Shown here: positions 1-22,200 of the stretch, piece by piece | How the letters are laid out: each line of letters opens with the position of its first letter | How positions within the stretch are numbered: position 1 is the stretch's first letter | From: Streptomyces sp. XM83C | GTDB taxonomy: Bacteria; Actinomycetota; Actinomycetes; Streptomycetales; Streptomycetaceae | Direction of reading: 5' to 3' | Length of the DNA: 33,531 bases | Assembly (NCBI RefSeq): GCF_023072675.1 | Contig: NZ_JALLGL010000033.1 | Span: 1 to 33,531, forward strand | The notes under the pieces: generated by a model | Database searches by the model: none | Told to the model about the DNA's origin: nothing | What the model saw: only the letters and a program-made list of their open reading frames with translations | Made by a program: the position numbers and the translations under genes

Positions 1-111
1 CTGGCGATCAGCCTCGCTCACCTCGCCGGATGGAAGAACAACGCCGCCGCCCACGACCACTACCGCAACCACCCCGCCGACGCCCTACGCGAACTCGGTC
101 TCACCGGATGA
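1..111 (+). CDS. C-terminal end of an unidentified protein, possibly a transposase (5' end outside window)
   Basis: An open frame enters from the left edge and stops with TGA at 109-111, giving 36 residues that end ALRELGLTG. Third positions are mainly G/C, which supports coding. The ending (hydrophobic helix, then GWKNNAAAHDHY, then a short basic tail) resembles the last residues of some DDE transposases such as the ISAs1 type. That is an impression from a short fragment, not an identification. No inverted repeat can be assigned to it here. Confidence 0.35.
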   Translation: MAISLAHLAGWKNNAAAHDHYRNHPADALRELGLTG

Positions 112-1302: not shown

Positions 1303-2205
1303 TCAGCCCAGCTGCCCAACAGCCTCCGTAGCAATTCCTTCGAATGCGGCCTGGTCGGCGGCGAAGTCTGAGTCGGGGATCGGCCAGTGGATCACGATCT
1401 CGGTGAAGCCGAGCTCCTGGTGGCGGCCGGCGAAGTCGACGAAGGCGTTCACAGACTCCAGCGGTCGGCCCCGGTCCGGGGTGAAGCCGGTCAGCAGGAT
1501 CTTGTCCAGCTCGGCCACATCCCGCCCGGACTCGGCGCACGCCTTGCCGAGCTTCTCGACCTGCCCGCGCAGTGCCTCCACCGACTGCTCCGGGGTCCCC
1601 TCCTCGTACAACTTCGGGTCGCCCGTCGTCACCCACGCCTGCCCGTACCGGGCGGCCAGCCGCAGCCCGCGCGGCCCGGTCGCCGCCACGGCGAACGGCA
1701 GCCGCGGGCGCTGGACACAGCCTGGGATGTTCCGCGCCTCCTCCGCCGTGTAGAAGTCGCCTTTCTGCGAGACCGCGCCCTCGGTGAGCAGGCGGTCGAG
1801 CAGCGGCACGAACTCGCCGAACCGGTCCGCCCGCTCCTTCGGCGTCCACGCCTCCTGGCCGAGCGCGGTGGCGTCGAAGCCGTTGCCGCCGGCCCCGATG
1901 CCGAGGGTGACCCGCCCGCCGGAGATGTCGTCGAGCGAGATCAGCTCCTTGGCGAGCGTCACTGGATGCCTGAAATTAGGCGACGTGACGAGGGTGCCCA
2001 GGCGCAGGCGGTCCGTGGCCGTGGCGGCGGCGGTAAGGGTGGGCAGGGCGCCGAACCAGGGGCCGTCGCGGAAGGTCCGCCAGGAGAGGTGGTCGTACGT
2101 GTACGCGGCGTGGAAGCCGAGTTCCTCGGCGCGCTGCCACTTCGCGCGGCCTCCCTCGTGCCAGCGGTCGACGGGAAGGATCACGGTGCTCAGGCGCAGG
2201 CTCAT
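1303..2205 (-). CDS. LLM-class F420-dependent oxidoreductase, complete copy carried by the element
   Basis: A 300-residue luciferase-like TIM-barrel protein of the F420-dependent family, which uses reduced coenzyme F420 for hydride transfer; the substrate is unknown. The start is taken as ATG at 2205 (MSLRLSTVILP); an upstream extension to 2268 is arginine-rich and unlike the family. Residues 75-300 align without gaps to the truncated host gene at 22173-22853, roughly 85% identical by eye, so this is a diverged orthologue rather than a recent duplicate. Codons 76-81 (positions 1963-1980) read CCT AAT TTC AGG CAT CCA, whereas the host has CCG AAC TTC CGG CAC CCG. The peptide is the same, but five codons are replaced by ones rare in Streptomyces, exactly at the integration point. 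This suggests a rescue copy immune to the element's integrase. Confidence 0.9.
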   Translation of the reverse strand: MSLRLSTVILPVDRWHEGGRAKWQRAEELGFHAAYTYDHLSWRTFRDGPWFGALPTLTAAATATDRLRLGTLVTSPNFRHPVTLAKELISLDDISGGRVTLGIGAGGNGFDATALGQEAWTPKERADRFGEFVPLLDRLLTEGAVSQKGDFYTAEEARNIPGCVQRPRLPFAVAATGPRGLRLAARYGQAWVTTGDPKLYEEGTPEQSVEALRGQVEKLGKACAESGRDVAELDKILLTGFTPDRGRPLESVNAFVDFAGRHQELGFTEIVIHWPIPDSDFAADQAAFEGIATEAVGQLG

Positions 2206-2360: not shown

Positions 2361-2840
2361 TTATTGCGCAGCGGTGATCGACCATCCATGGCGGGAGAAG
2401 GACGGGCCTCCATCCCGGTACGCCGCCAGGGCCTGCGTGGAGGTCGGGAACGCGGGGGTGGGCAGGCCGCTCGCGGCGACCCACTCGGCCGTCAGGTGCT
2501 TGTCCGGCTCGGGGTTGGTCAGCTCACCGGCCCACGTGTCGGTGGCGAAGACGAACAGGACGAACTGCCCGGCCTGGTCCCAGCCCTGTTCGACGTGGAT
2601 GACCTGGACGAGGGCGAGATCCGCCGGGTCGACGAGCAGGCCGGTCTCCTCCTTGAGTTCGCGGGCGGCGGCCTCGTCGAGGGCTTCGCCGGGTTCGGCC
2701 TTGCCACCGGGGAGGGTCCAGGCCGGCTGCGGGGACCAGTTGCGGGCTCCGTAGAGCACGGCGGCGATCGTGTCGGCGTCCTTGTCGTGGACGATCACGC
2801 AGACTGCGTTGCGGCTGTTCATAACGCTGGTGTTGATCAC
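2361..2840 (-). CDS. Nudix hydrolase
   Basis: A 159-residue protein with a canonical Nudix box near residue 45: GGKAEPGE, seven residues, then RELKEETGL, matching GX5EX7REUXEEXGU. Family members hydrolyse nucleoside diphosphates linked to another moiety; the glutamates bind the catalytic metals. The substrate cannot be predicted. The GTG start at 2840 is supported by GAGGAG about seven bases upstream; ATG at 2822 is an alternative. The gene is single, transcribed away from the FkbM gene, and in the same direction as the LLM copy downstream. Confidence 0.88.
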   Translation of the reverse strand: MINTSVMNSRNAVCVIVHDKDADTIAAVLYGARNWSPQPAWTLPGGKAEPGEALDEAAARELKEETGLLVDPADLALVQVIHVEQGWDQAGQFVLFVFATDTWAGELTNPEPDKHLTAEWVAASGLPTPAFPTSTQALAAYRDGGPSFSRHGWSITAAQ

Positions 2841-2931
2841 GTGCCCACTCCTCGTCGACGTGCCGGAAGGTGTCGGTGGTCCTGGCGGGCGGCTCGGACC
2901 GGCCGGGCCGCTCGGAACGTGGGGGTGCTGC

Positions 2932-3849
2932 TCAGCGGCCGAGCATGAGGCGATCGGCGTTGGTGCGGGAGAAGACCAGGTCGGTCATGTGCTTCGGGGT
3001 TTCGGTGCACCGGACCGGCGGCTGCGGTCGGCGCATGGCCCGGGGGTAGGTGGCCGGGTCGTAGTCGTTGGTGAGCGTGTACGCGTGGAAGCCGTGCTTG
3101 CGCAGGGTGTCGATGATGTCGGCGGCGCTCTCGCCCTGCTTGGCCAGGAGCCTGGGGGTGACTTCCACGACGAGTTCCGCGTCGTCGCGCAGGTCCACCA
3201 GCGCGGGCAGCAGCCCTCGGATGGCTGCTGCCTCGGCGCCTTCGACGTCGATCTTGATGATCCGGGTGGTGGCGAGCTCTGCCCTGCTGACCAGGCCGGC
3301 CAGGGGTGCGGTCGGCACGTCGAAGGCCACGTGGACGTGCCGGGGCCGGACGGCGGTGGTGTGACCGAGGTTGGCGGGGTCCTCCAGATAAAGAGTCAGG
3401 GTGCCGTGGGTGTCGAAGGCAGCGGAGCGGACGGCCCGGATGTTGGTGCGGTGGTTGGCGGTGGCCACGGCGGTCAGGTCGTCGTGGAACTGCGGGGAGG
3501 GTTCAATGGCGACGACACGGCCGTGGGGTCCGACGGCATGGGAGGCCAGGAGGCTGAAGGCGCCGCGGTGAGCTCCGACATCGATGAAGGTGTCGCCAGG
3601 CCGGAGCCGGTCGCGCAGGAAGGCGCTCAGGTTCGGCTCCCACTCGCCGAACAGGTACTGGTAGCGCTGGATGACGTCGCTGGTGGTGACGCCGACCTTG
3701 TCGCCGGACCTCAGTCCGACGGTGGCGTGGATGGGGTGAGTGCGCAGGTGCTCGTCGAGGAAGCGGCCGACGAGCTGGACCTTGCCCACGGTTCCGGGTG
3801 CGTGGCGGACGTAGGCCCGTAGCGCGCGGGCGAGTGCGGAGGCGGACAC
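2932..3849 (-). CDS. FkbM-family SAM-dependent methyltransferase
   Basis: A 305-residue protein with a Rossmann methyltransferase core. FIDVGAHRGAFSLLA near residue 90 is the glycine-rich SAM-binding motif I; VVAIEPSPQ is motif II; IIKIDVEGAE near residue 197 is the FkbM signature. FkbM proteins O-methylate sugars or polyketide hydroxyls. The GTG start at 3849 has AAGGAG six bases upstream. It sits close to a four-gene glycosyltransferase cluster, separated by an oppositely oriented kinase gene, so methylation of a sugar made by that cluster is plausible but unproven. Confidence 0.88.
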   Translation of the reverse strand: MSASALARALRAYVRHAPGTVGKVQLVGRFLDEHLRTHPIHATVGLRSGDKVGVTTSDVIQRYQYLFGEWEPNLSAFLRDRLRPGDTFIDVGAHRGAFSLLASHAVGPHGRVVAIEPSPQFHDDLTAVATANHRTNIRAVRSAAFDTHGTLTLYLEDPANLGHTTAVRPRHVHVAFDVPTAPLAGLVSRAELATTRIIKIDVEGAEAAAIRGLLPALVDLRDDAELVVEVTPRLLAKQGESAADIIDTLRKHGFHAYTLTNDYDPATYPRAMRRPQPPVRCTETPKHMTDLVFSRTNADRLMLGR

Positions 3850-3950
3850 GGGCGGCTCCTTCGGGTGGTGGTGATGAGGAACGGGGTCCTGGGCTTGCCG
3901 GCGGTGGCAGACTGGCCAAGGAACGCTGGTGGTGTTGAGGGGAGTTGGCG

Positions 3951-4451
3951 GTGGCCGAGCGCACTCCGGTGGTGTTCCTGCTGGTGGGGCTCACCGGTTC
4001 GGGGAAGACCACCTATGCCCAGCGGAAGCTGGAGCCCGAGGGTGCTGTGCGGCTGTCCGTGGACGAGGTCGTCTATGAGCGGCACGGCCGGTACGGCGTC
4101 GACTACCCGGAGAACACCTACTTCGAGAAGGAGGCCCCGGTCGTCGCCGAGCTGCACGAGCGGCTGGCCGAGCTGGTCGCCGAGGGCCGGGACGTGGTGT
4201 GGGACCACGGGCTGTGGCCGCGTAAGGACCGGGATGCGATGAAGGAGCTGGTGGAGTCGGCCGGCGGGCGGTGGCGGCTGCTGTACTTCCCGGTGAAGCG
4301 TGACGAACTGCTGCGCAGGCTGGTGGAGCGCAACGAGCGGGAGGACGCCAACGCGCTCGTCGTGACGCCGGAGGCCCTGGACGACTTCTTCGCCCGCTTC
4401 GAGGCGCCTCAGGGCGAGGGCGAGGAGATCGTGGAGCCGGACTGGCTCTGA
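3951..4451 (+). CDS. P-loop AAA-type kinase (ATP-binding protein)
   Basis: A small P-loop phosphotransferase of about 166 residues. GLTGSGKTTYA is the Walker A motif and RLSVDEVVYE holds the acidic residue that follows the second strand in zeta-toxin/gluconate-kinase-like folds. DVVWDHGLW and a C-terminal RRLVERN segment (LID-like arginines) complete the small-molecule-kinase pattern. Start: GTG at 3951 sits six bases after GGAG (3941-3944); TTG at 3945 is possible but too close to that site. Its 3' end overlaps the convergent glycosyltransferase gene by 43 bases. Substrate unknown; similar stand-alone kinases often phosphorylate sugars, nucleosides or antibiotics. Confidence 0.8.
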   Translation: MAERTPVVFLLVGLTGSGKTTYAQRKLEPEGAVRLSVDEVVYERHGRYGVDYPENTYFEKEAPVVAELHERLAELVAEGRDVVWDHGLWPRKDRDAMKELVESAGGRWRLLYFPVKRDELLRRLVERNEREDANALVVTPEALDDFFARFEAPQGEGEEIVEPDWL

Positions 4452-5311
4452 GTCATGTGCGGGCGCCAGGTGGTGGAGATCTTGGCGGCTTCGGCGGCCC
4501 AGCCGTCCGGCAGGCGGTCGAGGGTGACGCGGCGGAAGGCCAGACGGGGATCGGCGACGTCGATGCGGCCGTTGTGGCGGTCGACGTGCTGCAACAGGCG
4601 GGACGCCTCGCTGCGGACGGCCGGGGTGTGCTCGGCCCACTCACCGGAGGTGAACCGGTCGACCCGCCGGCGCAGGTCGTCCAGGACGCCCGAGCGCCAC
4701 TTGAAGTGGTGCACGCACGCGAGCGTGTCCGGGTCGGGCTTGTGGCCCGGTGCCCGGTGGTTTCCGGACGCCACGGTCACCGAGGAGTGGGCGAGGACGA
4801 TCTTGCGTGGATCGCCCTTGAGGAGCCGGTGGGTGAGGTGCCCGCCGAGCGGGAAGGCCCGGTCCAGTCCCGTTTCCGGGCGCCAGAGGGCCAGGCGGCC
4901 GTCGTTCGTGACGCGGTCGAGCATCAACCCGCCGATCACCTTGTGCCTGGCGGCCTCGGCCTGGGCGATCATCTCGGCGAGCGGGGCAGGGTAGGTCTGG
5001 AACTCGTCGGAGTCGGCGATCAGGTGCCAGCCTGTCCCGGCCTGCTCGCGCAAGGAGTCGCGGAGCCGGGTGTTGGTGTGCTCGTGCCACGGTCCGGTGC
5101 TGATCCGGGCAGGGATGATGTCGAGGTCGTGGCTGGCCGCGAGGAGCTGGTGCCGCCAGGCGTCGTGGACGTGGTCGGGGAAGTGGAAGGCGAGGTGGAA
5201 GCGTTCGATGCCGAGTCGGCGGTAGTGGGCAGTCCAGGCGGCCAGCAGAGCCGGTTCGACCGGGCCGACCACCGCGACCAGGGCGGGAGAGACGGTCGTC
5301 TTCATCGGCAT
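4409..5311 (-). CDS. Glycosyltransferase-like protein (GT-A type, DUF23/GT92-like)
   Basis: A 300-residue protein starting KTTVSPALVAVVGP and continuing with AAWTAHYRRLGIERFHL, a pattern seen in GT-A transferases of the Glyco_tranf_2_4/GT92 type. WHLIADSDEFQTYP near residue 95 holds the DxD-like metal-binding motif, and HHFKWRSG near residue 205 resembles the C-terminal metal-binding histidine region. It is last in a tightly coupled run of four. The second in-frame ATG (5305) overlaps the upstream TGA as ATGA, so translation is probably coupled; ATG at 5311 is the alternative. The acceptor and sugar cannot be read from the sequence. Confidence 0.72.
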   Translation of the reverse strand: MPMKTTVSPALVAVVGPVEPALLAAWTAHYRRLGIERFHLAFHFPDHVHDAWRHQLLAASHDLDIIPARISTGPWHEHTNTRLRDSLREQAGTGWHLIADSDEFQTYPAPLAEMIAQAEAARHKVIGGLMLDRVTNDGRLALWRPETGLDRAFPLGGHLTHRLLKGDPRKIVLAHSSVTVASGNHRAPGHKPDPDTLACVHHFKWRSGVLDDLRRRVDRFTSGEWAEHTPAVRSEASRLLQHVDRHNGRIDVADPRLAFRRVTLDRLPDGWAAEAAKISTTWRPHMTQSQSGSTISSPSP

Positions 5312-6537
5312 TCCTTGGTCAGGCGGGTGTAGGTGTCGGCGAGGAAGGCGGCCTGCTCGGCCGCCGAGTGCATGTCCAGGACCCCGCGCGCCGAAGGACC
5401 CGGGCGGGCAGGCGCGTCAGTCGTGAGGCCGTCCAGCGTCTTGGCGAGGGCGTCCGGATCGTCGGCAGGGAAGAGCCGGGCCCACGGCTCCCCGATGAGC
5501 CGGGCGGTCAGCTCGGAGTCGTGTGCGGAGACGATCAGCGGGACGCCGAGGCGGGCGGCGTCCATGACCAGTCCTGATTCCTTGCCCACGCCGGGCTTCC
5601 GCGCGACAAGGGCCGCGTCGGCAGCGGCGTACACGAGCCGCAGGACCTGGTCGCCGACCGGGCCGGGCACGGTGTGAAGGCGGACTTTGGGGAGCTGATG
5701 CCAGCGTGTGAGGACGGCGTCGTCCAGCGGGGTGCCGCACACCAGGACGTGCAGCGGGGTGGTGAGGCGGGCGAGGGCGGCGTCGATGGCGGGGATGTCC
5801 TTGTACGGCCACCAGCCGCCGACCACGCACACCGCCTTCGCGTCGGCGGGGATGGTGAAGGCGGTGCGGGCACCGTCTCGTTCGGCGTCGGTCAGCGGGC
5901 GCCCGTCGTCGACCGCGAACGCTCGCACCTCACCCAGAAGGCGAGGGAAGGCCGGCGCGACCTGATCGCGGACAGCGGTGGTCGGATACAGCGCGATCAC
6001 CCGTTTCTCGCCCCTGCGGGCGAGTCGGCCCAGCCACCGGACCAGGCGGTCTTCGGTGGTGACCGCCTCGTGGATGAACCGCAGGTGCGGGGTGCCGCCG
6101 AGCAGGGCGGCCACACCGTGCAGGGCCTCGTTCGCGCTGAGGATCACCACTGCCGAGGCCCGCGGGGCGAGGCGGCGTGCGGTGCGAAGGCAGGCGGCCT
6201 CGGTCAGGCACCGGGCGAGAAGGGTGACCTGGTGCGGGGACCTGCGGACCGCCAGCGGCCAGCGCCGGGAGGCGAAGATCTGCTGGCCGGCGGCGGAGAC
6301 CCGTGCTGCCGCCCGCGCGACGGCCAGAAGGATCTTCGCCGCGGGCCCGGCCGGACCGACGGCGACCCGGGAACCGGACTGAACCAGCGGGCCCACGTCC
6401 TCGCTCAGGCCGCCCGGGGCGATGACGAAGCTGTCCGGCCGCGCGGTGGCGAGCGCCGCCAACGTGCGCTGGTGGTGTCCGCCGACCCGGTGCGCGTATG
6501 GCTCAATCAGCACCAGCGACCCGGGGGCGGCGTTCAT
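5302..6537 (-). CDS. GT-B type glycosyltransferase
   Basis: A 411-residue protein opening MNAAPGSLVLIEPYAHRVGG, with HHQRTLAAL following, as in GT4-like enzymes. The second half contains CVVGGWWPYKDIPAID, where lysine and arginine-like residues bind the donor diphosphate, and GVGKESGLVMDAARLGVPLI near residue 340, corresponding to the EXnE donor-binding segment (KESGLV) of GT-B transferases. The start at 6537 overlaps the stop of the upstream gene as ATGA, so an apparent longer frame to 6801 is only open reading inside the neighbour. No membrane segments or signal peptide; probably a cytoplasmic transferase. Confidence 0.78.
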   Translation of the reverse strand: MNAAPGSLVLIEPYAHRVGGHHQRTLAALATARPDSFVIAPGGLSEDVGPLVQSGSRVAVGPAGPAAKILLAVARAAARVSAAGQQIFASRRWPLAVRRSPHQVTLLARCLTEAACLRTARRLAPRASAVVILSANEALHGVAALLGGTPHLRFIHEAVTTEDRLVRWLGRLARRGEKRVIALYPTTAVRDQVAPAFPRLLGEVRAFAVDDGRPLTDAERDGARTAFTIPADAKAVCVVGGWWPYKDIPAIDAALARLTTPLHVLVCGTPLDDAVLTRWHQLPKVRLHTVPGPVGDQVLRLVYAAADAALVARKPGVGKESGLVMDAARLGVPLIVSAHDSELTARLIGEPWARLFPADDPDALAKTLDGLTTDAPARPGPSARGVLDMHSAAEQAAFLADTYTRLTKECR

Positions 6538-7238
6538 CCGGTCACCGCCTGCTCGCCGTACAGCGTGGTGAAGTGCTGATACAGCCAGGGCGGGTCGTTG
6601 AGCGCCTCGAAGTGTTGCGGGTCGCGGGCGGCGGCCTTGGCGAAGCCGAGTCCGCCGCGGGCTCCGGCCGCCGCGTAGGCGGCGAATTCGCCATCGCGGC
6701 TGGCCGTCCAAGCGGCGATGCGTTCCTGGGCGGAGGCATCGGTCATGCCGTACTCGCTGCCGCGCGCGAGCATCGCGCACTCGCGAAAGCCCGCTTTCCA
6801 CGCGTGGAACGGGCTCTGGTTGAACCGCGTGACCCCGGCGGTCTGGCGGCAGAACTCGACCCGGCCGGGCAGTGCGGCCAGCACGTCGACGGCCTGGCCC
6901 ATCTCCCTCAGCGCCGAGCGGCGGATCAGCTTGAGCCCGCCGTAGCCGTAGGTCAGGCCGTTGACCGGGTTGACCGCCTGCCAGACCCGCATCGCCAATC
7001 CGTCAGCCAGCGGCTGAACCGCGGCGGTGGGGAACTCGGGGTCGATGGCGAAGTCACCGTCGGCAAGGAAGAACTGCTCGGTGTCGACCAGCTCGGCGGT
7101 GAGCCGGTAGGCGCGTCGCATCCCGCGGACTCCGTGCAGGCGCTTGACGTTGCCGCCCAGCACCCGGGCGAGGCGGGTGTGCAGACGGTCGGCCAGCGGC
7201 TCGTCGTAGGAGAGCTGGACCGCGTCGAAGCCGGTCAC
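6534..7238 (-). CDS. Glycosyltransferase-like protein (GT-A fold suspected)
   Basis: A 234-residue protein. QFFLADGDFAIDPEF near residue 55 contains a DxD-like acidic motif following a hydrophobic strand, as in GT-A transferases. GLTYGYGGLKLIRRSAL near residue 95 resembles a donor/acceptor loop, and PFHAWKAGFRECAML near residue 143 is an unusual histidine-tryptophan helix. It is short for a full GT-A enzyme and lacks the typical N-terminal nucleotide-binding strand, so it may act with its neighbours. The GTG start at 7238 overlaps the upstream stop (GTGA); its own stop overlaps the next ATG. Family assignment is moderate. Confidence 0.6.
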   Translation of the reverse strand: MTGFDAVQLSYDEPLADRLHTRLARVLGGNVKRLHGVRGMRRAYRLTAELVDTEQFFLADGDFAIDPEFPTAAVQPLADGLAMRVWQAVNPVNGLTYGYGGLKLIRRSALREMGQAVDVLAALPGRVEFCRQTAGVTRFNQSPFHAWKAGFRECAMLARGSEYGMTDASAQERIAAWTASRDGEFAAYAAAGARGGLGFAKAAARDPQHFEALNDPPWLYQHFTTLYGEQAVTG

Positions 7239-8389
7239 TTGATCGCCTCCAGGTAACGGGCGGCCACCATGGCGGGCGTGAGGTGGGCGGTGGAGGCGTA
7301 CGCGCGCTTGGCGTGCACCAGGTAGAACTCGGCGTCCGTGGCGAGGCGCTCGGTGATCTGGACGGCCTGTTCGTCGGTGTCGAACAGCAGCTCGTGGTCG
7401 ATGTGCTCGGCCAGCCAGCCGGTACGCGGGCCGATCACGGGCAGGCCCATCGCCTGGCAGTCGATCACCGACATGGACCAGGGGCAGCCAGATCGGAAGG
7501 GGGCGATGCCGAAGTGGGCGCCGGCCAGCAGGTTGCGGTAGCGGATGCGGTCGCCGCGGTCGGAGGCGATGGTGACGCCATCCGTGGTCGCCAGCTCCTC
7601 CAGGTGCCGTTCGGGGCTGGGGTCGAGACGGATGCGCTCGGGGCTACGGGTGCCGAACAGGTCCATCACCGTGAGCCGCACGGGGGCGTCGGCGACGAGG
7701 CGGCGGGCGAGCTGGGTGAAGCGAGCGGTGCCGTAGTGCCTGTACAGGCGGTGGTTGTAGATGCCGGTGGCTCGGCCTTCGGGCGGGGTGATGTCGGCCG
7801 GGTCGCGCACCAGCCGTACGTCCCTGGGGGCAGGGACGATGTGCAGCTTGTCGCCGAGGTCGACGCCGGTGCGGGCGGCAGCCGCGGTGGTCCAGGAGGC
7901 GGCGGTGGAGGAGTGGACCAGGATGCGGTCGCAGGCCGCGAGGCCGGCGGCGAAGGCCAGCAGCACGCTTCGGCTCAGGCTCCGGTCGTTCATCGCCGGG
8001 TCCAGCGCCAGGACTCCGGTGTCGGTGAAGGAGAACGGCAGATAGTGGCAGTAGCCGGCGATCAGCGCGTCCACCCCGGCTTCCAGGAGCGCGGCCCGGA
8101 TCGCGGGGGCGGCCTCGATCTGGTTGGCCACCACCACCTCGGGCCGCCGGTCGCGGATCAGGGTGACCAGAGCGTCCATACCGGGGTCGAAGCGGGCCCG
8201 GTACTTGGTGGACGGCGAGACGGTGGGCGCGAAGTGCACGCGGGCGTCACCGACCGGGACCGGCGAGGCCACGGTCACTTCGGCCCCGGCGTCGGTCAGG
8301 GCCGGGGCGAGCAGGTCGGCGAAGGTGTAGCCGGAGTCGGCGGACAGCTGACTGGAGTTGGAGACGTTGAGCAGATACAGCACGCGCAT
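7235..8389 (-). CDS. GT4-like glycosyltransferase, first gene of the glycosyltransferase operon
   Basis: A 384-residue GT-B protein. MRVLYLLNVS followed by GYTFADLLAPALTDAGAEVTVAS is the N-terminal Rossmann unit, RILVHSSTAA is the inter-domain region, and FGIAPFRSGCPWSMSVIDCQAMGLPVIGP (written here only as a landmark near residue 320) is the C-terminal donor-binding part. ATG at 8389 is chosen because AGGAGGG lies about nine bases upstream; a longer open frame to 8488 lacks such a site. It is the promoter-proximal gene of the four-gene minus-strand run to 4409. The run diverges from the XRE regulator gene across a 143-base gap that should contain both promoters. Confidence 0.8.
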   Translation of the reverse strand: MRVLYLLNVSNSSQLSADSGYTFADLLAPALTDAGAEVTVASPVPVGDARVHFAPTVSPSTKYRARFDPGMDALVTLIRDRRPEVVVANQIEAAPAIRAALLEAGVDALIAGYCHYLPFSFTDTGVLALDPAMNDRSLSRSVLLAFAAGLAACDRILVHSSTAASWTTAAAARTGVDLGDKLHIVPAPRDVRLVRDPADITPPEGRATGIYNHRLYRHYGTARFTQLARRLVADAPVRLTVMDLFGTRSPERIRLDPSPERHLEELATTDGVTIASDRGDRIRYRNLLAGAHFGIAPFRSGCPWSMSVIDCQAMGLPVIGPRTGWLAEHIDHELLFDTDEQAVQITERLATDAEFYLVHAKRAYASTAHLTPAMVAARYLEAIK

Positions 8390-8532
8390 CGCTGGGACCC
8401 TCCTGGTTTGGGCCCGGGGGTCGACCTGGGCCGGTAGAGGAAGGAAACTGGCGGCCGGGACCGTGACAGAATGGTGAATCGAGATCACTCACGGTTCATT
8501 CATCTCATCCGACGGCCAGGGCGGGGGCTTTG

Positions 8533-9504
8533 ATGGACGCGCGGGACGACGCCTTGACGGTCGAGCAGGCCGCCGAGGCGTTCGCGGCGGAGGTCGCCTA
8601 CTGGCGCGAGGTGCGGGGGCTGGCCAAGCGGGAGTTAGCCAGAAGGATGGGATTCGACCCGTCCTACGTAAGCCACGTCGAGTCGGGCCGTCACAAGCCG
8701 ACCGAGGACTTCGCCCGACGCGCGGAGGAGGCTCTGAACGCGGGCAAGGCCATCTGGAAGCGCTGGCTGGACTACGAGACGGCCAAGACGCCCGTGGCAC
8801 CGGCACCGGTCGTACCCGCCCCCCGCAGGGCCGAGCAGCCGTACGCGACCGGCTCGGCGATCGTCGTCGAGCACGACGCGGCCCGCCTCGACTACGACGG
8901 GCGCCTCTACCGGCTCACGATGCGCCGGCTGTTGCGGAACACCGGCGGTGAGCCGATCACCCGCTATCTGATCCGCATCAGCGTCGACCGCTACCCGGGC
9001 GAGCCGGAACGGTCCAACGCGCACTACCGCGAGCACCCGCTGACCTGGGACGAGCTTGCCCTGACCGCGACCTGTCGCGGTGAGGCGATGCGCTGGCAGG
9101 CCAAGCACGACCGCGACGCCTTCAAGGAGGTGTGGCTGCTGTTCGAGAACGAACAGGGCCGCTTCCCTCTGTACCCGGGCGAGTCGGTGTGGATCGAGTA
9201 CGCCTACTCGGTGGGCGAAGAGAAGTGGGGCCGCTGGTTCCAGCGCGCCGTCCGCCTGCCCACCGAGCACCTGGCGGTCGAACTCGCCTTCCCCGCCGAG
9301 CTCGACCCGGCTGTGTGGGGCACCGAGACCTCCATGACCGCCGAGGCGGCGCCGCTGCGAACGGCCCCGGTCCAGCGCGAGGAGAGCGGGATGCGGGTCT
9401 TCTCCTGGAGCACGTCCACACCCGCGCTCCATGCCCGGTACCGTCTGGAATGGCGGTTCCGGGCGCGACCCGAACGTGAAGCGAGCCAAGGGGAGTTCAG
9501 GTGA
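8533..9504 (+). CDS. XRE-family helix-turn-helix regulator
   Basis: About 323 residues. Near residues 20-70 a helix-turn-helix of the XRE/Cro type is clear: REVRGLAKRELARRMGFDP followed by SYVSHVESGRHKPTEDFARR. A proline/alanine linker follows, then a ~200-residue C-terminal domain with many tryptophans and tyrosines (WLLFENEQGRFPLYPGESVW) that probably senses a ligand or partner. The ATG at 8533 is preferred to the TTG just before it. It diverges from the glycosyltransferase operon, which it may regulate. Its stop overlaps the deformylase start as GTGA, so the two proteins are made in linked amounts. Streptomyces genomes often hold such regulators beside small enzyme genes. Confidence 0.82.
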   Translation: MDARDDALTVEQAAEAFAAEVAYWREVRGLAKRELARRMGFDPSYVSHVESGRHKPTEDFARRAEEALNAGKAIWKRWLDYETAKTPVAPAPVVPAPRRAEQPYATGSAIVVEHDAARLDYDGRLYRLTMRRLLRNTGGEPITRYLIRISVDRYPGEPERSNAHYREHPLTWDELALTATCRGEAMRWQAKHDRDAFKEVWLLFENEQGRFPLYPGESVWIEYAYSVGEEKWGRWFQRAVRLPTEHLAVELAFPAELDPAVWGTETSMTAEAAPLRTAPVQREESGMRVFSWSTSTPALHARYRLEWRFRARPEREASQGEFR

Positions 9505-10070
9505 TCCAGGTGCGGCCCAGCGAGCAGATGCGCGGCCTCGGCGTCGTGCAGAACGGAGCCCCCGTCCTCGCCGAGCCTGCCCGCGCCTTCGACCTGCCGG
9601 CCGAGCGCGAGGCAGCCGAGCACGTCATCGAGCAGCTCTTCTCCGCGATGGAGCGAATCGGGCAGGTCCACCCCTTCGCCAAGGGCATGGGCATCGCGGC
9701 CCCGCAGATCGCGATCGGCCGGGCCGCCGCCGTGGTCCAGCCCCCCGACCCCGGTGCCCCGGCGATCGTCCTGCTGAACCCCCGAATCACCGACCGCTCC
9801 AGCGACGAGGACGAGCAGTACGAGGGCTGCCTGTCGTTCTTCGACGTCCGTGGCCTGGTCCCCCGGCCGCTACGGATCACCGTGGAGACCATCACGCTGG
9901 AGGGCCAGCTGGTGACCACCACCTACGAACGCGGGCTCGCCCGGCTGGTCCACCACGAGATCGACCACCTCGATGGCCTGCTCTACACCGCGCGGATGCG
10001 GACGGGCGTTGCTCCCATCCCCGTCGAGGAGTACCGCCAGACCGGCCGGGCGTGGGCGTACGAGCAGTGA
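9501..10070 (+). CDS. def: Peptide deformylase
   Basis: A 189-residue protein with all three deformylase motifs in order: GMGIAAPQ (62-69), EGCLS (108-112, cysteine metal ligand) and HEIDH (152-156, two histidine ligands and the catalytic glutamate). The enzyme removes the formyl group from the N-terminal methionine of new proteins. The GTG start overlaps the stop of the upstream XRE gene, so it is translationally coupled to a regulator. A mobile-element copy next to the chromosomal enzymes is most likely accessory, possibly giving tolerance to deformylase inhibitors such as actinonin; that is inference. Confidence 0.93.
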   Translation: MIQVRPSEQMRGLGVVQNGAPVLAEPARAFDLPAEREAAEHVIEQLFSAMERIGQVHPFAKGMGIAAPQIAIGRAAAVVQPPDPGAPAIVLLNPRITDRSSDEDEQYEGCLSFFDVRGLVPRPLRITVETITLEGQLVTTTYERGLARLVHHEIDHLDGLLYTARMRTGVAPIPVEEYRQTGRAWAYEQ

Positions 10071-10282
10071 CGGCCGACAGCGCTGCCGGGTGCCGGCGAA
10101 CGTCCGTCGTTACCTCAAGCCGTCCCCGGATGCGATCACCGAACCCACCAGTCTGCGTGCCCCGGGCGGCAGCGTCGATGCGCACGGGGACGAGAGAGCC
10201 AGGTGGTTGGTAGCGTCCTCCTGCAGCTGCGACACAGCATGCCAACGATGCACTTGGGATCGCCCACTCACAAGGAGAGCCA

Positions 10283-10849
10283 ATGGCGCTGTTTCGCCGC
10301 CGCAAGGAAAATCAGGAATCACGTCCCATCACTGATCACGCCGTGGAACCCTTCGGAACTCGCTTCGCGGGCGCTTTGACAGTCCCGAAGAAGGAAGCGG
10401 ACGCTCTGATAGCCGAGTCCCTCCTCTGGCAGTTTGTCCAGGATGCACTGGAAGAGGGAGAGGTCGAGTGGGTCACGTGTGGCGGTATGTGGGTTCCTGC
10501 TGACGCCCCGCCGCTTCCCGTGCGTTTCTACCTGACAGACCGTCGCGTGATCGTGGCCCTCGACAGTCCGAGCCTCCCGGCAAGAAGTATGGACCTCCCA
10601 TTCGACGACATCGCCGTGTTCGACCCAGAAGGCCCTGTCGGCGGCCGTCGGCCGAAGCGAATCCAGTACCTCGTGATCACCTCCGAGAGCGGTAGGCCAG
10701 AGGACGGCGTCCGCACCATCGTCGAGTTCAACCTCGACGATGAAGGACATCGCTTCATCGGGACAGCAACGAAGGCTCTACGTGACCACGGTGGACTGCA
10801 CGGTCGTCTGGAACGGGCCCGAAACTCTCGAAGCGAACCGTCCGCATAG
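10283..10849 (+). CDS. Hypothetical protein, PH-like fold possible
   Basis: A 188-residue soluble protein with a textbook ribosome site (AAGGAG, about six bases before ATG). The middle (VRFYLTDRRVIVAL, followed by MDLPFDDIAVFDPEG) has the alternating strand pattern and 'LTDRRVI' phrase common in bacterial PH-like/YdbT-like domains. The C-terminus is a helix rich in charged residues. Codon usage is less G/C-biased than in the glycosyltransferase block. It stands alone between the deformylase gene and a convergent lipoprotein gene. No function is assigned. Confidence 0.65.
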   Translation: MALFRRRKENQESRPITDHAVEPFGTRFAGALTVPKKEADALIAESLLWQFVQDALEEGEVEWVTCGGMWVPADAPPLPVRFYLTDRRVIVALDSPSLPARSMDLPFDDIAVFDPEGPVGGRRPKRIQYLVITSESGRPEDGVRTIVEFNLDDEGHRFIGTATKALRDHGGLHGRLERARNSRSEPSA

Positions 10850-10951
10850 AGGCTCCGCCCTCTTCAAGCCAGCCGCTGGTCCAACAAGCATGGTGTCTCG
10901 CCGCCGGCGTTCTTGTTGCGCAGTGTGAGCGGACACGCAGAGGGCCTCATT

Positions 10952-10971
10952 CTGCCGGGTGGATCCGGCAG
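10952..10971. terminator. Hairpin between convergent genes, possible bidirectional terminator
   Basis: CTGCCGG (10952-10958) and CCGGCAG (10965-10971) form a perfect seven-base stem with a six-base loop between the convergent hypothetical gene (ends 10849) and lipoprotein gene (ends 11083). There is no T-run, which is usual for Streptomyces terminators. Support is position and symmetry only. Confidence 0.4.
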
Positions 10972-11082
10972 CCGGGAGAAGTCTGGCCGAGCGTGTTCAT
11001 GAGGTGGCGGACGAACGGAGCGAGGCGGGCGACTCCTCGTCATGGAGCCGCCTGCGCGGAACGGGACCGCCCGCATCTCGAT

Positions 11083-11382
11083 CTACGGCTTTGGCTGGTC
11101 TTCTGGCCACATCGCGGGGCTGGCGCCGTCGAAGCCGTCCATGCACCCCTTCATGAAGTACTTGCGCACCTCGGAGATCGCACCCTCATCCATGGCGGCC
11201 TCGTAGTCCTGGAGCTGCTGCACGCACCCAGTGCCCTTCTCCGCTCCTGCCTGGCTCTCGTTGCGCCCGCTCAGGTATCCGGCCGCGTAGTCATAGGCGT
11301 TCGCTCCGCGCTGCACCTCGGCCCCGCAGCCGGTCGCAAAGGCGAGTACGGCGATGGAGGCCACCCCCCAGCGTCTGCTCAT
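11083..11382 (-). CDS. Small lipoprotein, function unknown
   Basis: A 99-residue protein starting MSRRWGVASIAVLAFATGCG: a basic N-terminus, a hydrophobic stretch and a lipobox-like ATGC, giving a predicted lipid-modified cysteine at residue 19 and anchoring at the outer face of the membrane. The mature part has two further cysteines (GTGCVQQLQDYEAAMDEG and MKGCMDGFDG) that may form a disulphide. GGGAGGGG just upstream of ATG 11382 supports this start over a longer frame reaching 11640. No family is recognised. Confidence 0.65.
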   Translation of the reverse strand: MSRRWGVASIAVLAFATGCGAEVQRGANAYDYAAGYLSGRNESQAGAEKGTGCVQQLQDYEAAMDEGAISEVRKYFMKGCMDGFDGASPAMWPEDQPKP

Positions 11383-11638
11383 GTCCCCTCCCTGTGGTCT
11401 ACATGAACGCGGAGACTGTAGCGCCCGCCCCGCTGGCCCGTTTGTTCGGCCGCCGATCCCCGGGCCCTTACCTCCCACCCCATGCCCCTCACTGCGGCCG
11501 AACCTTGTGGGGGCGCGTTGATCGACGTGTTTCTCTTCCTCACTTGATTCGGCTTCGGACGATGCAGGGATGCTGGGGCCACTGGGAGTGTTTGAGGACT
11601 CGATACCGATGTCAGGGGGGCCTGGCACACTGCGGCCC

Positions 11639-12310
11639 ATGACTGCACGCGATCATCTTCGTTCCACGGCTCCTCGGGCTCTGCGCGACCTCGAAGCCCT
11701 GCAGGCACGGCTGGAGGCTGTGCGGACCGTACCCGCCGTACGTCCTTTGAACGACTGGGTGGAGAATCTGCGCGAACGTCTCGGGGACGGCGAGTCCGTG
11801 CCGTGGTTCGATCCCGCGTCTGGGGGCGTTGAAGCGCGCAGCTTGTTCCTTCTGGAGGCGCCCGGCCAGAAGTCCATGGGGGCGGAAGCTGCCTTGCGCC
11901 GTACGGGCAGCGGCATCATCTCCATCGACAACGACGATCCGACCGCGCAGAACTGCTGGACGCTGCGGGACGAGGCTGGTCTCCCCTATGAGCTGTCTGT
12001 GCACTGGAACGTCGTGCCGTGGTACCTCGGCACCGCAGACCGGATCGCCGCACCCGGGCGGACGGAGATACAGCGCGCGGCGCCGTTCCTGCATGAGGTG
12101 ATCTCGATGCTTCCCGCGCTGGAGCTGGTCGTCCTGATGGGGCGCAAGGCGCAAGCCGGCTGGGCTGCCTATCAGGAGCAGTACGCGCCCAAGGTCCACA
12201 CTCTTGCCACATGGCACCCCAGTCCGCGGGTGTTCGCCTCCCGGCCTGCGGCCCGCCAGGAGATCCTGGACACGTTGCGTCAGGCGGCCGATCTGCTGCG
12301 TTCCGCCTGA
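11639..12310 (+). CDS. Uracil-DNA glycosylase superfamily protein
   Basis: A 223-residue protein. RSLFLLEAPGQKSMG near residue 65 corresponds to the glycosylase motif 1 region (GEAPG-like) and ATWHPSPRVFASRP near residue 193 to the HPSP(L/R) motif inserted into the DNA minor groove. WNVVPWYLG sits at the position of the 'N-x-x-P' uracil-pocket segment. Together they match the family 4/5-like uracil-DNA glycosylase superfamily; the typical four cysteines of the FeS family are not seen. Family enzymes remove uracil or related bases from DNA, but an altered member could bind rather than cut. ATG at 11639 fits the family N-terminus; ATG at 11609 is possible. Confidence 0.7.
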   Translation: MTARDHLRSTAPRALRDLEALQARLEAVRTVPAVRPLNDWVENLRERLGDGESVPWFDPASGGVEARSLFLLEAPGQKSMGAEAALRRTGSGIISIDNDDPTAQNCWTLRDEAGLPYELSVHWNVVPWYLGTADRIAAPGRTEIQRAAPFLHEVISMLPALELVVLMGRKAQAGWAAYQEQYAPKVHTLATWHPSPRVFASRPAARQEILDTLRQAADLLRSA

Positions 12311-13578: not shown

Positions 13579-14571
13579 TCAGTCCAGGCGGATCAAGCGC
13601 TGGGCGAGAGTGCGGGCCTCTGGCGGGAGAGCCTCTACGATCTCTCGCGCGTAGGCGCTGTCGGGTCGGGCGGCGAGGTCCCGGACGACGCCCCAGTTCT
13701 CCGCGATCCGTTCCATGGCCTGCCGTGCGCAATGGATGGCCTCCTGCCTGTGGGCCAGGAACTCTTCGGCGCGCTGGTGGGCCTGGTGCCAGGTGATGTC
13801 TCCCTGCTCGGCGAGTTGGGCCAGGGGCGGGGTGGTGTGGCCGTCTGCGAGGTGGAGTTCGTCGGCGTCGGCGATCTGATTCCGGATGCGGTTGTCCTCC
13901 TGTCGTTCCTCCAGCGTGGCGATGGCTTCGTCGAGGGTGAGGTGGCCTTCGGTGACGAGCTGGGCGAGGTCGGGGGCCCGCTCGCTGAGGCGGTCGCGCT
14001 TCTCCTGGAAGGCTGCGGCCTTCGCCTTATTCTCACGGGCGATGTCGTAGGCGGCGTCGAGCGGGTAGGCGCCGACGCGGACCTGTTCGGCGAGCTCGGG
14101 GGAATAGGTGAGGACGATGTTGGCGGCGGAGAGGCGGGTGCGGCTGAGGCTGTGGGTCTTGGCCAGGTCGCGCAGGGAGTGTCCCGAAACGGAACAGGCC
14201 ATGGCGGTGATCATGGCCTGCTGCCCCTTGCTGAGGTGCCGGCGGTAGACGTTGCTGGAGAGGATGAACGCTCGGGGGTTGTCGCCGGTGTAGGTGGTGA
14301 AGCGCGGTTCGACGCTGGCGATCTCGCAGGCGGCGAGGCGGTTACGACCGTCGAGGAGGACACCGTCAGAGTCGACGACGATGGCCTTGCGAAGGCCCTC
14401 GTTCTTGATCGACTCGGCGAGGTCGAGCAGTTCGTCCTCGCTGAGCATCGGGAAGATGTCGGCGGCGGGGTGGATCTTCAGAGCGGGCTCCTTGCTGTCG
14501 GCTGCTGTGGGGTCGGCACTCTGCGGGTGCAATTCGGTGGTGTGGGCGGATGGCTGCCGGATGGCTGTCAT
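13579..14571 (-). CDS. ParB/Srx-like DNA-binding protein
   Basis: A 330-residue protein with a ParB N-terminal domain: LSEDELLDLAESIKNEGL, then IVVDSDGVLLDGRNRLAACE near residue 72, the 'GxRR-like' segment that in ParB/sulfiredoxin-like folds binds CTP or ATP. A helix-turn-helix follows (HSLRDLAKTHSLSRTRLSAAN near residue 130), and the C-terminus is helical. No ParA partner is adjacent, so it may regulate or mark element DNA rather than run a full partition system. It starts at ATG 14571, with AAGGAG upstream, only 17 bases after the relaxase stop, so it is in the mobilization operon. Confidence 0.8.
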   Translation of the reverse strand: MTAIRQPSAHTTELHPQSADPTAADSKEPALKIHPAADIFPMLSEDELLDLAESIKNEGLRKAIVVDSDGVLLDGRNRLAACEIASVEPRFTTYTGDNPRAFILSSNVYRRHLSKGQQAMITAMACSVSGHSLRDLAKTHSLSRTRLSAANIVLTYSPELAEQVRVGAYPLDAAYDIARENKAKAAAFQEKRDRLSERAPDLAQLVTEGHLTLDEAIATLEERQEDNRIRNQIADADELHLADGHTTPPLAQLAEQGDITWHQAHQRAEEFLAHRQEAIHCARQAMERIAENWGVVRDLAARPDSAYAREIVEALPPEARTLAQRLIRLD

Positions 14572-14588: not shown

Positions 14589-16301
14589 TCAGCGGCTTCG
14601 GTGGCGTTGCTCGGCGGGGGTGATGGGCGCCGTGGCGGGTTGGGGGTCTCGTGCCTGGTGTGCGCTGGGTGCGGGCGCCATGGTGGAGCGGCGGCGGGCG
14701 GCTTCGGCGCGGGGGTTGGGTGCGGGGTTGCGGCTGGTGTGCTGGATGCGGGTGATCAGGACACGGGCGGGTTGGCGGGCGGTGGTGAGTTCACGCTTCT
14801 CGGCGGCCTCCTTGAGGAGCTGGTGGGGTTTGTGGCCGCCCGCTTCGGCGTCGGCGAGGACGGTGGCGAGGGCCGGCCAAGCGGGGTCGGTGAGGATGCG
14901 GTCGGCGTGGTCGGGGACGGCGGCCCGGACGTCGTGGGCGAGGGTCCGGCGGGCCTGGTCGTTCGGCCGGCGGGTGGCGAGGCTGTCGACGACGGGCGTG
15001 AGGGCGTGGTCGGCGGCGGTCTGGAGGTGGTGGAGGGTCTGGCGGGCGGCTTCGGCCTGGTGGGCGTGGTTCTTCGCTTCGTGCCAGCGGGCGGCGACGA
15101 TCGTGGCCCAGACGAGGGCAGCGAGCAGGGTCGCCAGGGCGCTGCCGTCGGGGCCGGTGGCGGTGTGGGCAAGGTCGCGGGCCGCCTTGCGCAGGGTGTG
15201 GGCGGCCTGGTGCTCGGCGCGGATCTGGGAGCGCTGGGCGCGGACGAATGCCCGTGAGGCTGCTCGCAGTTCGGCGTGAACGTGGTTGGGGACTTTCTGG
15301 GCGGTGGCTTCGATGAGGTCGCCGAGCGCGGTGATGTGGGCCTGGGCGTGGGCGTCGTCGGCCATCCCCTGGTGGAGGGTGCCGAGGGCGTCGGTGGCCT
15401 GATGCCAGGGGGTGGCAGGCTGGTCACGGCGTGCGGTCGGGTGCTCCTCCGGCGCGGTCGTCTCCAGGCGGGCCCTGAGCTTGGGGAGGGTGAGGTCGGG
15501 GGCGATCTTTCCGCCGGGGTGGAAGATCTGTTCGCCGTCCTTGTTGAGGTCGCCGGGGCGGCCGACGGCGTAGCCGAGGAGGTCTCCGGACGGTCCGCGG
15601 CGGGGTTTGACCGCGATGCCGTCGGCTTCGAGGTAGGCGAGGAGTTCCTCCGCGCTGCTGGCGTGGGGGATGGCGGCGCGGATGCGGTCCTGGAGCCAGT
15701 CGCGGCTGGTCTGCTCCCAGCCGAGGCGCTCGGCCTTGTGCATCTCGGTCTGGCTGGGTGCGCGTCCGGCGGTGCGGTCGCCCTTCTTCAGCTGGCGTAG
15801 GCCGTAGTCGGTCTCGATCTGGCGGCAGGCGTCGCCGACGCGGATGCCGCTGTCGTGGAGCCTGGGGCGGCGGCCGTCCTCGCGGACGGTGGTGGCGAGG
15901 ATGTGGATGTGGTCATCCGCGTGGCGTACGGCGATCCACCGGCAGGCCAGGTCGTCGCCGGGCGGGGCGATGCCAGCGGCTTCGACGATCCGCTGCGCGA
16001 TCTCGGCCCACTCGGCGTCGGAGAGGTGGCGATCGGTGGGGGCCGTGCGGACGGGGCAGTGCCAGACGTGGTCGGTGACCTTCCTTCCGAACTCGCTGTT
16101 CCGAAGATGGACGGGCTCGTCAAGGTGGCGGGCGAGCTGGGTGAGGGTGGCGCTTTGGTCGCGGCCGGGGTCGGGCATGCCGAGCATGGCGAAGCCGGCG
16201 ACGATGTGCGGGTCGGTGTGCTCGTCGTGGCGGCCGGGGCCGTAGAGGTAGGCGAGCAGGCCACGGGTGTTGGACCCGGCCGGTTTGATGGCGGCGATCA
16301 C
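14589..16301 (-). CDS. Relaxase/mobilization nuclease (MobA/VirD2 type)
   Basis: A 570-residue protein. The first 200 residues are a MobA/VirD2-like nicking domain. RWIAVRHADDHIHILAT contains the metal-binding H127-x-D-x-x-xH131-x-H133 triad (HADDHIH), and the N-terminal YLYGPGR tyrosines near residue 18-20 are candidates for covalent DNA attachment. The remainder is a long alanine- and arginine-rich helical region (residues ~290-500), probably for DNA or coupling-protein contact. The ATG overlaps the TGA of the MobC-like gene (ATGA), so both are translationally coupled. It would nick an oriT to start transfer; no cognate coupling ATPase is visible in the window. Confidence 0.88.
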   Translation of the reverse strand: MIAAIKPAGSNTRGLLAYLYGPGRHDEHTDPHIVAGFAMLGMPDPGRDQSATLTQLARHLDEPVHLRNSEFGRKVTDHVWHCPVRTAPTDRHLSDAEWAEIAQRIVEAAGIAPPGDDLACRWIAVRHADDHIHILATTVREDGRRPRLHDSGIRVGDACRQIETDYGLRQLKKGDRTAGRAPSQTEMHKAERLGWEQTSRDWLQDRIRAAIPHASSAEELLAYLEADGIAVKPRRGPSGDLLGYAVGRPGDLNKDGEQIFHPGGKIAPDLTLPKLRARLETTAPEEHPTARRDQPATPWHQATDALGTLHQGMADDAHAQAHITALGDLIEATAQKVPNHVHAELRAASRAFVRAQRSQIRAEHQAAHTLRKAARDLAHTATGPDGSALATLLAALVWATIVAARWHEAKNHAHQAEAARQTLHHLQTAADHALTPVVDSLATRRPNDQARRTLAHDVRAAVPDHADRILTDPAWPALATVLADAEAGGHKPHQLLKEAAEKRELTTARQPARVLITRIQHTSRNPAPNPRAEAARRRSTMAPAPSAHQARDPQPATAPITPAEQRHRSR

Positions 16302-17032
16302 GCGGCCTGGTCCTTCCTGGATTCGGTCGGTTCGCGCAGGGCCTCGGCGATCAGCTCCAGCAGACGGTGCAGCTCGGCAAGACGGTGCCGGATATCGGGT
16401 GGGGTGAGGTCGCTGTTGAGGGCGCGGGCGATCTGGTTGACGTTGACGCCGATGCGGTTGAGCTCGCGCAGCACCTGGGCGCGGAACATGTGGGTGCGGC
16501 GGCGGTCCTCGGACAGCGGCAGGTTCGCCGTGAACCTGCCGGACACGAACGCGAGGACGATGTCGGCGGCGAAGCCGGATTCCCCCTTGTAGCCGTGCTC
16601 AACTGCGGCCTCCTGGAGAGCGTTGTGCTCGTCGCCGGTGAACCGAAGCGGTCCGACTCGGACGGTCCGCTTGGTGCCGGTGAAACGGCGGATCGTCGGC
16701 TGGACGCTCTGCACCGCTCGCTCGCCGGCTGTCGGTTCTGTGGGGGGTGCGGGGTGGAGGATCTGCTGCTGGACGGTGTGGAGCTCGTCCGGGTCGGGGC
16801 CGCCCTCGGTCCCGACCTCCCGGTCCGGCGCCCCCTGGCGTCGGGCCGTCTCCGCCACCCCCGGCGCGGAGATCCCCGAAGACCGGCCTTGAGTCGGACT
16901 CGGGGTACTACTGGCTCCGCCAGGAGCCGCCCGTCCGAACGCCAGCCGCAAACGGCACAGCAGCGTAGGCGACTTCGCCAGCGACGGCAGATCGTCGGAA
17001 CGGTGATCGGCGTGGTGGGGGTCGTGCGTCAC
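16298..17032 (-). CDS. MobC-like plasmid mobilization accessory protein
   Basis: A 244-residue protein whose C-terminal ~110 residues carry the MobC pattern: VRVGPLRFTGDEHNALQEAA (ribbon-helix-helix-like start) and ELNRIGVNVNQIARALN near residue 207, the MobC hallmark. The N-terminal ~100 residues are low-complexity and probably disordered. MobC proteins bind oriT and open DNA for the relaxase. The GTG start at 17032 and the ATGA overlap with the relaxase place it just upstream in the same operon. Confidence 0.85.
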   Translation of the reverse strand: MTHDPHHADHRSDDLPSLAKSPTLLCRLRLAFGRAAPGGASSTPSPTQGRSSGISAPGVAETARRQGAPDREVGTEGGPDPDELHTVQQQILHPAPPTEPTAGERAVQSVQPTIRRFTGTKRTVRVGPLRFTGDEHNALQEAAVEHGYKGESGFAADIVLAFVSGRFTANLPLSEDRRRTHMFRAQVLRELNRIGVNVNQIARALNSDLTPPDIRHRLAELHRLLELIAEALREPTESRKDQAA

Positions 17033-20143: not shown

Positions 20144-20236
20144 AGAGCTTCCTTGTCTCGGGCCGATACGGACTGGCAGGTCCCGGCACCGTGTAGATCG
20201 TTTTGGGCGGTCGTCTTGGGAGTCGCTGCGGCCTTG

Positions 20237-20249
20237 GTGCTCCAACACC
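20237..20249. repeat. Direct repeat copy 1, GTGCTCCAACACC
   Basis: Thirteen bases identical to 20548-20560; both are followed by a GGGG run. The core GTG-CTCCAA-CAC has dyad-like ends. It lies ~95 bases upstream of the ATPase start, where an operator would be expected. Confidence 0.5.
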
Positions 20250-22149: not shown

Positions 22150-22200
22150 GATGGTATGAGCATGGGTTGGGCTCGCCGAACTTCCGGCACCCGGTGACCC
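22150..22200. other. Putative attR: element/host junction
   Basis: Matching between this strand and the LLM family begins at TCG 22173-22175. The bases before it (ending TTGGGC) do not encode the expected LVT residues of the family, so host sequence begins at or just after 22173. It sits immediately upstream of the serine integrase gene. The exact crossover dinucleotide cannot be fixed without the left junction. Confidence 0.8.

Follow-up and report, generated by a model that had tools for sequence, protein, structure and literature searches.

A putative integrative mobilizable element in Streptomyces splits an LLM oxidoreductase gene and carries a complete copy with silent changes at the integration site

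Structure of the Locus

The window (the whole stretch of DNA analyzed, 33,531 nucleotides) is one entire contig, C266, in the 720-contig draft genome G000 of Streptomyces sp. XM83C. It contains a large serine integrase gene, genes that resemble mobilization and partition genes, a full-length LLM oxidoreductase gene, and the 3' part of another LLM gene. The 5' part of that second gene is on contig C169 (locus L013) of the same genome, and the two contigs are unjoined in the assembly. The features are listed below.

1303..2205, minus strand: carried LLM oxidoreductase gene (replacement copy), full length, open over 300 codons; Pfam Bac_luciferase 1.2e-41
1963..1986, minus strand: codons 74-81 of the carried copy, silently recoded, counterpart of the integration site; ACG TCG CCT AAT TTC AGG CAT CCA
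2361..12310, strand unassigned: variable cargo (NUDIX, FkbM methyltransferase, AAA/zeta-like kinase, and glycosyltransferase-like proteins; an HTH protein, a peptide deformylase, and a uracil-DNA-glycosylase-like protein)
13579..14571, minus strand: ParB-like protein; NCBIfam parB_part 3.1e-4 (below cut-off), PHROG ParB-like 2.5e-6
14589..16301, minus strand: probable relaxase, adjoining mobC; NCBIfam MobB 8.4e-8, far under the family cut-off
16298..17032, minus strand: MobC mobilization protein; Pfam MobC 5.8e-9
18602..20248, minus strand: DnaB-N / AAA helicase-like protein; Pfam DnaB 1.7e-26, AAA_25 1.8e-15
20710..22143, minus strand: large serine integrase, 477 aa; Pfam Resolvase 1.9e-20, Recombinase 2.1e-17, Zn_ribbon_recom 5.2e-9
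22170..22853, plus strand: native LLM gene, 3' part, and right junction; inferred crossover TC at 22173-22174
L013:5545-5793, minus strand (contig C169): native LLM gene, 5' part, and left junction

A sequence-only reading of the window had proposed that the right junction cuts a host LLM oxidoreductase gene and that the element carries a full 300-codon copy of that gene. Both points agree with the present analysis. The 3' part at 22170-22850 (+) is co-linear with residues 74-300 of the carried copy at 86% amino-acid identity, and the copy is an open frame at 1303-2205 (-). The integrase start codon is 26 bp from the native 3' part. On C169, the left LLM half is cut after ...LVTS and is followed by unrelated codons, with the native neighbors adjoining. 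This left junction, which the earlier reading had still to locate, belongs to the LLM oxidoreductase gene that the right junction also cuts, so the element splits the native gene. The native neighbors include a HAD hydrolase, identified by family search, and genes that we take to be kptA and SDR/hydrolase.

Joining the two flanks of the native gene by script restores an open gene of 300 aa. The same joining gives an inferred attB of ...GGGCACGCTGGTCACC-TC-GCCGAACTTCCGGCACCCG and an inferred attP of ...GGTTGGGC-TC-AGTCAAGCC for the window element. Flanks were joined for 11 genomes, of which eight were counted; G116 was set aside for a wrongly matched site, and G025 and G057 for the use of inner-type 5' halves. 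Seven of the eight yielded open genes of 300-304 aa, and G370 has a stop in the 3' remnant.

Element Class

The combination of MobC, the probable relaxase, the ParB-like protein, the helicase, and the integrase speaks for an integrative mobilizable element (IME). The element has the serine integrase of its own and the att junctions expected of an IME, with attL and attR in one gene. No conjugation genes were found among the window proteins scanned, and an element stretch between C169 and C266 may be missing. Searches of the probable relaxase against Pfam, PHROG, and PDB gave no match, and a relaxase-like gene is present in seven of 11 relatives compared, some of them fetched in part. The cargo at 2361..12310 occurs in only part of the relatives. 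Only the integrase and the LLM copy, among the window genes, are present in all 11 relatives, three of which were partly fetched.

A temperate phage was considered and rejected, as no structural, packaging, or lysis genes were found in the Pfam-scanned window proteins or in the five PHROG-scanned proteins. The best integrase match in viral contigs is 33%. The LLM copy has matches in two phage records (46% and 29% identity), neither of them from phiC31/TG1-type phages.

The left part of the element has matches to a Pycsar cyclase (PycC, L013:819-1766) and a Pycsar membrane effector (PycTM, L013:163-822). These proteins are absent from the 11 relatives compared and from the aminotransferase-clade loci described below.

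Distribution of the Carried LLM Copy

A search of 392 genus genomes with the integrase identified 33 genomes at E <= 1e-60. Twelve of these, the window's genome included, have at least 88% integrase identity (in three over part of the integrase). A named genome collection added nine genomes, in which the integrase is full length in seven (87-99%), frameshifted in one (93%; L116, G410), and reduced to a fragment in one (82%; L119, G411). These 21 close-integrase genomes, from Streptomyces and close kin, are referred to as the LLM clade.

All 21 genomes have a full-length LLM copy. In 20 of 21, an LLM 3' half lies at the integrase end, so that the gene is split, and the copy is open. Native-gene neighbors are within about 3 kb of the 3' half in 19 of these 20, with a weaker match in G399. 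Wherever the copy and the 5' half are on one contig (19 LLM-clade genomes), they are in opposite orientation. Carried copies are 75-88% identical in protein to the remnants of the split gene. The host LLM gene is near-universal in the genus; its protein was matched in 385 of 392 genomes at E <= 1e-60, element copies counted.

In several genus genomes that have no close integrase, among them G019, G020, G051, and G052, the host LLM protein finds two matches, which may be paralogues or relics. In a plasmid collection, two Streptomyces replicons (NZ_CP108633.1 and NZ_CP109560.1, about 1 Mb each) encode a partial integrase (residues 1-292) with 90% identity.

Silent Changes at the Integration Site

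At the cut site the host reads TCG CCG AAC TTC CGG CAC CCG and the carried copy reads TCG CCT AAT TTC AGG CAT CCA. As the sequence-only reading had noted, five of the six codons at the cut are changed, all synonymously, and the copy otherwise favors G/C-ending codons (codons ending in A or T are 8% of the whole copy). One further silent change beside the crossover is visible at the left junction, where the host has ACC and the copy ACG. That reading had described the site as erased. This is correct for the codons flanking the crossover, which are changed, but the crossover TC itself is kept, within a serine codon.

The 21 copies were codon-aligned with 38 intact host genes and with the right halves of the used sites; the latter number 19 rather than 20 because no locus was given for the G116 3' remnant, which is outside the codon table. 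Codon 74 is ACG or ACA in 21/21 copies and ACC in 37/38 hosts. CCT or CCA at codon 76 is present in 19/21 copies vs. 0/38 hosts, AAT at codon 77 in 16/21 vs. 1/38, and AGG at codon 79 in 17/21 vs. 0/38. CCT/CCA at Pro76 or AAT at Asn77 marks all 21 copies, one of the 38 intact hosts, and none of the 19 used sites; this separator was picked after viewing the codon table, and its Fisher p of 4e-18 ignores shared ancestry. When codons 74-81 are compared with the host consensus, copies show 4-6 mismatches and hosts 0-3. Use of the recoded string by hosts free of the element would, on the terms of the earlier reading, have counted against it; the string was found in none of the 38 intact orthologues (one has AAT alone).

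Two simpler accounts of the difference were rejected. The core dinucleotide is not the block, as TC is kept in the copies. A single codon, ACG74 or AGG79, does not explain it either; because each occurs singly in used sites, the combination of codons, above all 76-77, is what separates the copies.

Synonymous divergence was compared in windows along the genes, as the sequence-only reading had recommended, and the integration site is the peak of net divergence. The mean net synonymous divergence is 0.05 over 257 comparable codons, and the eight-codon windows 72-79 (0.40) and 74-81 (0.38) rank first and second. None of 100,000 random eight-codon sets reached the divergence of window 74-81. Outside the site, Ser90 has a net divergence of 0.82, vs. 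0.86 at codon 74. By raw mismatch excess, in which amino-acid changes are counted, the top seven-codon windows start at codons 71, 73, and 74, followed by 216, and the window from codon 75 ranks 11 of 288.

A Second Target in the Sister Integrase Clade

A sister integrase clade (about 74% identity) is inserted in a PLP aminotransferase gene. Its 14 entries represent 12 distinct genomes (G276/G400 and G375/G403 share coordinates). All 12 have 3' and 5' aminotransferase pieces and a full-length copy, although the 5' piece of G403 spans residues 29-175 only. The copy is open in 11 of 12 and split over two frames in G402. In contrast to the LLM clade, the copy is in the orientation of the 5' piece, at most about 4.5 kb away, in 12/12.

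Alignment of the two attP sites would place the aminotransferase crossover in an invariant Trp codon, which is unrecodable. With the G402 copy outside the codon counts, Val274 is GTT in 11/11 copies, 1/30 of the host set, and 0/10 readable attL sites. For Gly271, GGA or GGT is used by 10/11 copies vs. 2/30 of the host set. Val274 has the top net synonymous divergence of 313 codons, with several codons at 27-58 nearly equal. The earlier reading had asked whether elements with related integrases each carry a recoded copy of their target; a site-altered copy of the element's own target is present in all 21 LLM-clade and all 12 sister-clade genomes.

Among more distant integrases (52-59%), one clade has a transporter-like target. 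In six genomes of this clade only a 3' remnant and no second copy was found with a 41-residue query, by which a diverged copy could be missed, and the same query had zero matches in two further genomes. Carriage of a replacement has thus far been seen in the two related integrase clades tested.

Actinacidiphila bryophytorum (G399) carries both an LLM-clade and an aminotransferase-clade element. One aminotransferase gene of the host set, L215 (G057), has GTT and groups with the element copies; it was kept in the counts. G057 has one integrase match, of the LLM clade. L215 may represent a rescue copy that persisted after its element was lost.

Conservation of the Carried LLM Copy

Median omega over codons 88-299 is 0.19 for copies (computed without G146), 0.16 for hosts, and 0.29 for 3' remnants. 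These values indicate that the carried copies are under purifying selection and conserved nearly like native genes, and the remnants less so. The integrase is broken in G370, G410, and G411, yet the LLM copy is open in each.

G146 (L039, L093) has an intact native LLM gene; its integrase end adjoins an unrelated frame, its integrase is also partial, and an in-frame TGA interrupts its copy. In this one genome, a copy that decays when the native gene is intact would fit what a rescue function predicts.

Discussion

Integrative mobilizable elements with serine integrases disrupt their target genes, and elements that insert at gene ends leave the gene intact (excerpts of PMC5704250 and PMC5357655). 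We consider it likely that the window element is an IME that splits the conserved LLM gene and carries a full, site-recoded copy, which would make good the loss of the enzyme and on which the integrase is predicted not to act. On the sequence evidence, both junctions are in one gene, the full copy is open, and the silent changes are concentrated at the site. The same architecture is seen in relatives and, with another gene, in the sister integrase clade.

In the proposed mechanism, the serine integrase would insert the element mid-gene and break the conserved LLM oxidoreductase gene, and the complete carried copy would supply the protein lost through the split. Silent recoding around the integration site would hide the copy from the element's own integrase. 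A hidden copy would be open neither to insertion by sibling elements nor to inversion against the element's own attP. This mechanism assumes that loss of the host LLM gene is costly and that the carried copy is both expressed and able to complement the split gene. It also assumes that the recoded changes stop the integrase from using the copy; such resistance is suggested by the absence of the separating changes from all 19 used sites.

A broader interpretation is that the integrase and the recoded target gene together form a heritable core, that of a naturally occurring integrate-and-rescue element, used with at least two unrelated targets, in which the host would come to depend on the element through its sole working and uncuttable copy. 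We advance this tentatively and give it slightly less than even weight.

The carried LLM copies may have arisen more than once. In a tree with codons 62-87 removed, the copies are scattered at several places among the host genes, and a single clade of all 21 copies is rejected (AU p 0.0022; 0.0014 with G399 placed among the others). Either the copies were captured and recoded repeatedly, or the elements retained the tract and swapped the remainder of the gene with host genes. Codons 68-73 are partly common to copies with different backbones (TTG at 69, ACC at 71, CTC at 72), and because of this sharing some inheritance of the tract is favored; part of it may have a single origin. Copies vary at the site itself, with ACG or ACA at codon 74, CCT, CCA, CCG, or CCC at 76, TTT at 78 in G399, and AGG, CGT, CGC, or CGG at 79. 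Because these solutions differ, some independent change is also favored. We infer that either route needs selection against the native site.

The strictest form of inheritance is one founding recoding, after which the elements passed on the tract and homologous recombination with host genes replaced the remainder; the origin of the tract would then be explained by integrase escape. The sharing of codons 68-73 by many copies is consistent with this, well-supported branches require no more than two label changes, and one clade of aminotransferase copies is not rejected (p 0.13). However, the solutions at codons 74, 76, 78, and 79 differ, and retention of the tract through exchange would itself require selection. 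We therefore regard a single recoding as unlikely.

The LLM copy could be ordinary cargo, an extra LLM enzyme of benefit to the element or the host, whose recoding only prevents self-targeting. The copy's protein does differ from the native gene (86% identity over the 3' part). This explanation is very unlikely, as elements of the sister clade bring a copy of the different gene that they themselves target, and the G146 copy is stopped in a genome with an intact native gene.

The silent changes might instead guard the copy against homologous recombination with the native halves, an event by which stretches of the element would be inverted or deleted, rather than against the integrase. Because the copy is inverted relative to these halves in the 19 LLM-clade genomes noted above, recombination between them would invert DNA. 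However, the changes are placed at the integrase site, and since the rest of the copy is 75-88% identical and mostly synonymously unaltered, a few local changes would hardly block recombination; we find such a guard extremely unlikely. Chance, with an unrelated paralogue drifting ordinarily at the site, is practically excluded: many other codons do differ synonymously (mean between-group difference 0.36) and raw mismatch excess places the codon-75 window only 11th, but net synonymous divergence peaks at the site, the separator distinguishes every copy from every used site and from all but one host, and a full copy is present in every close-integrase genome.

The integrate-and-replace arrangement favored here can be compared with several known systems. 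The genes disrupted by serine-integrase IMEs are described as dispensable (excerpts of PMC5704250), and large serine recombinase targets are treated as disrupted genes (excerpts of PMC10083194). The window element resembles serine-integrase IMEs in its serine integrase, mobilization genes, and intragenic insertion; it differs in its complete carried copy of the target, which the excerpts of PMC5704250 and PMC5357655 do not mention. Neither target is mentioned in the excerpted account of Streptomyces elements (PMC9513070).

Some elements restore the end of a gene at the junction, such as e14 in icd and SXT in prfC. At the junctions of the window element no gene end is regenerated, and both LLM halves are left broken. 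Tyrosine-integrase elements that restore the ends of tRNA or protein genes are similar in that damage to the target is repaid, but they rebuild one end and keep the site (excerpts of PMC5704250); here the whole gene is supplied, distant from the junction and with the site altered.

Synthetic systems provide the nearest likeness. Cleave and Rescue is reportedly an engineered gene drive with a recoded rescue, and the window's genome has the corresponding parts, a broken host gene and a full copy altered at the target site. HomeR is an engineered gene drive with a re-coded rescue (excerpts of PMC7968924). In HomeR, a single unit both disrupts a gene and provides a recoded rescue that is no longer targetable; the window element would do the same. 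The differences are that HomeR-type drives are synthetic, nuclease-based, built for animals, and inheritance-biasing (excerpts of PMC7968924), whereas the window element has a natural bacterial integrase and would move by horizontal transfer.

The Streptomyces serine-integrase systems of phiC31, TG1, and others share the recombinase superfamily and the host genus with the window element. We know of no carried target copy in phiC31, TG1, or their kin. The literature searched, in which subscription journals and preprints are sparsely covered, yielded no natural element that carries its target gene whole and recoded. The element type is already known; the complete, site-altered replacement is, within the reach of these searches, a new way to pay for insertion.

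The window element is an apparent natural counterpart of recoded-rescue gene drives. It suggests a possible route by which site-specific elements could enter conserved genes, instead of dispensable genes or gene ends. The silent differences between copies and used sites may serve as a natural record of what serine integrases tolerate, for two related integrases and two targets. The idea that an element becomes hard to lose by owning the gene it broke is made testable.

Extra Half-Genes

Two or more LLM 5' pieces are present in 10 of the 21 LLM-clade genomes. Outer pieces are mostly 87-94% identical to host genes (80-82% in G290 and G358), and many are accompanied by host upstream DNA. Inner pieces have the common signature ACGCAGAGTATGCG, with variants, and are about 75-83% identical to hosts and copies alike; a host upstream match was sought for them and not found. 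In G025 the sole 5' half is of the inner type and lies beside native neighbors. Inner pieces may represent older carried copies that were themselves broken at the site. In the window's genome, a decayed second LLM 5' piece (L013:1963-2166) ends at the att-like sequence GTCACCTGAGTCAAGCC.

Cis-mobilizable elements and accretion at att sites likewise produce several att-like half sites in a row (excerpts of PMC5704250), but in the present case each extra half is a fragment of the target gene. Extra LLM 3' halves were not found in the 21 LLM-clade genomes. Aminotransferase 3' halves that resemble the carried copy (85-90% identity to it) are integrase-adjacent in G395 and outermost in G393 and G401, so one simple nesting story fails. 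Three or four aminotransferase 3' halves lie in tandem beside the sister-clade integrase in G393 (contig C31) and G401 (contig C294).
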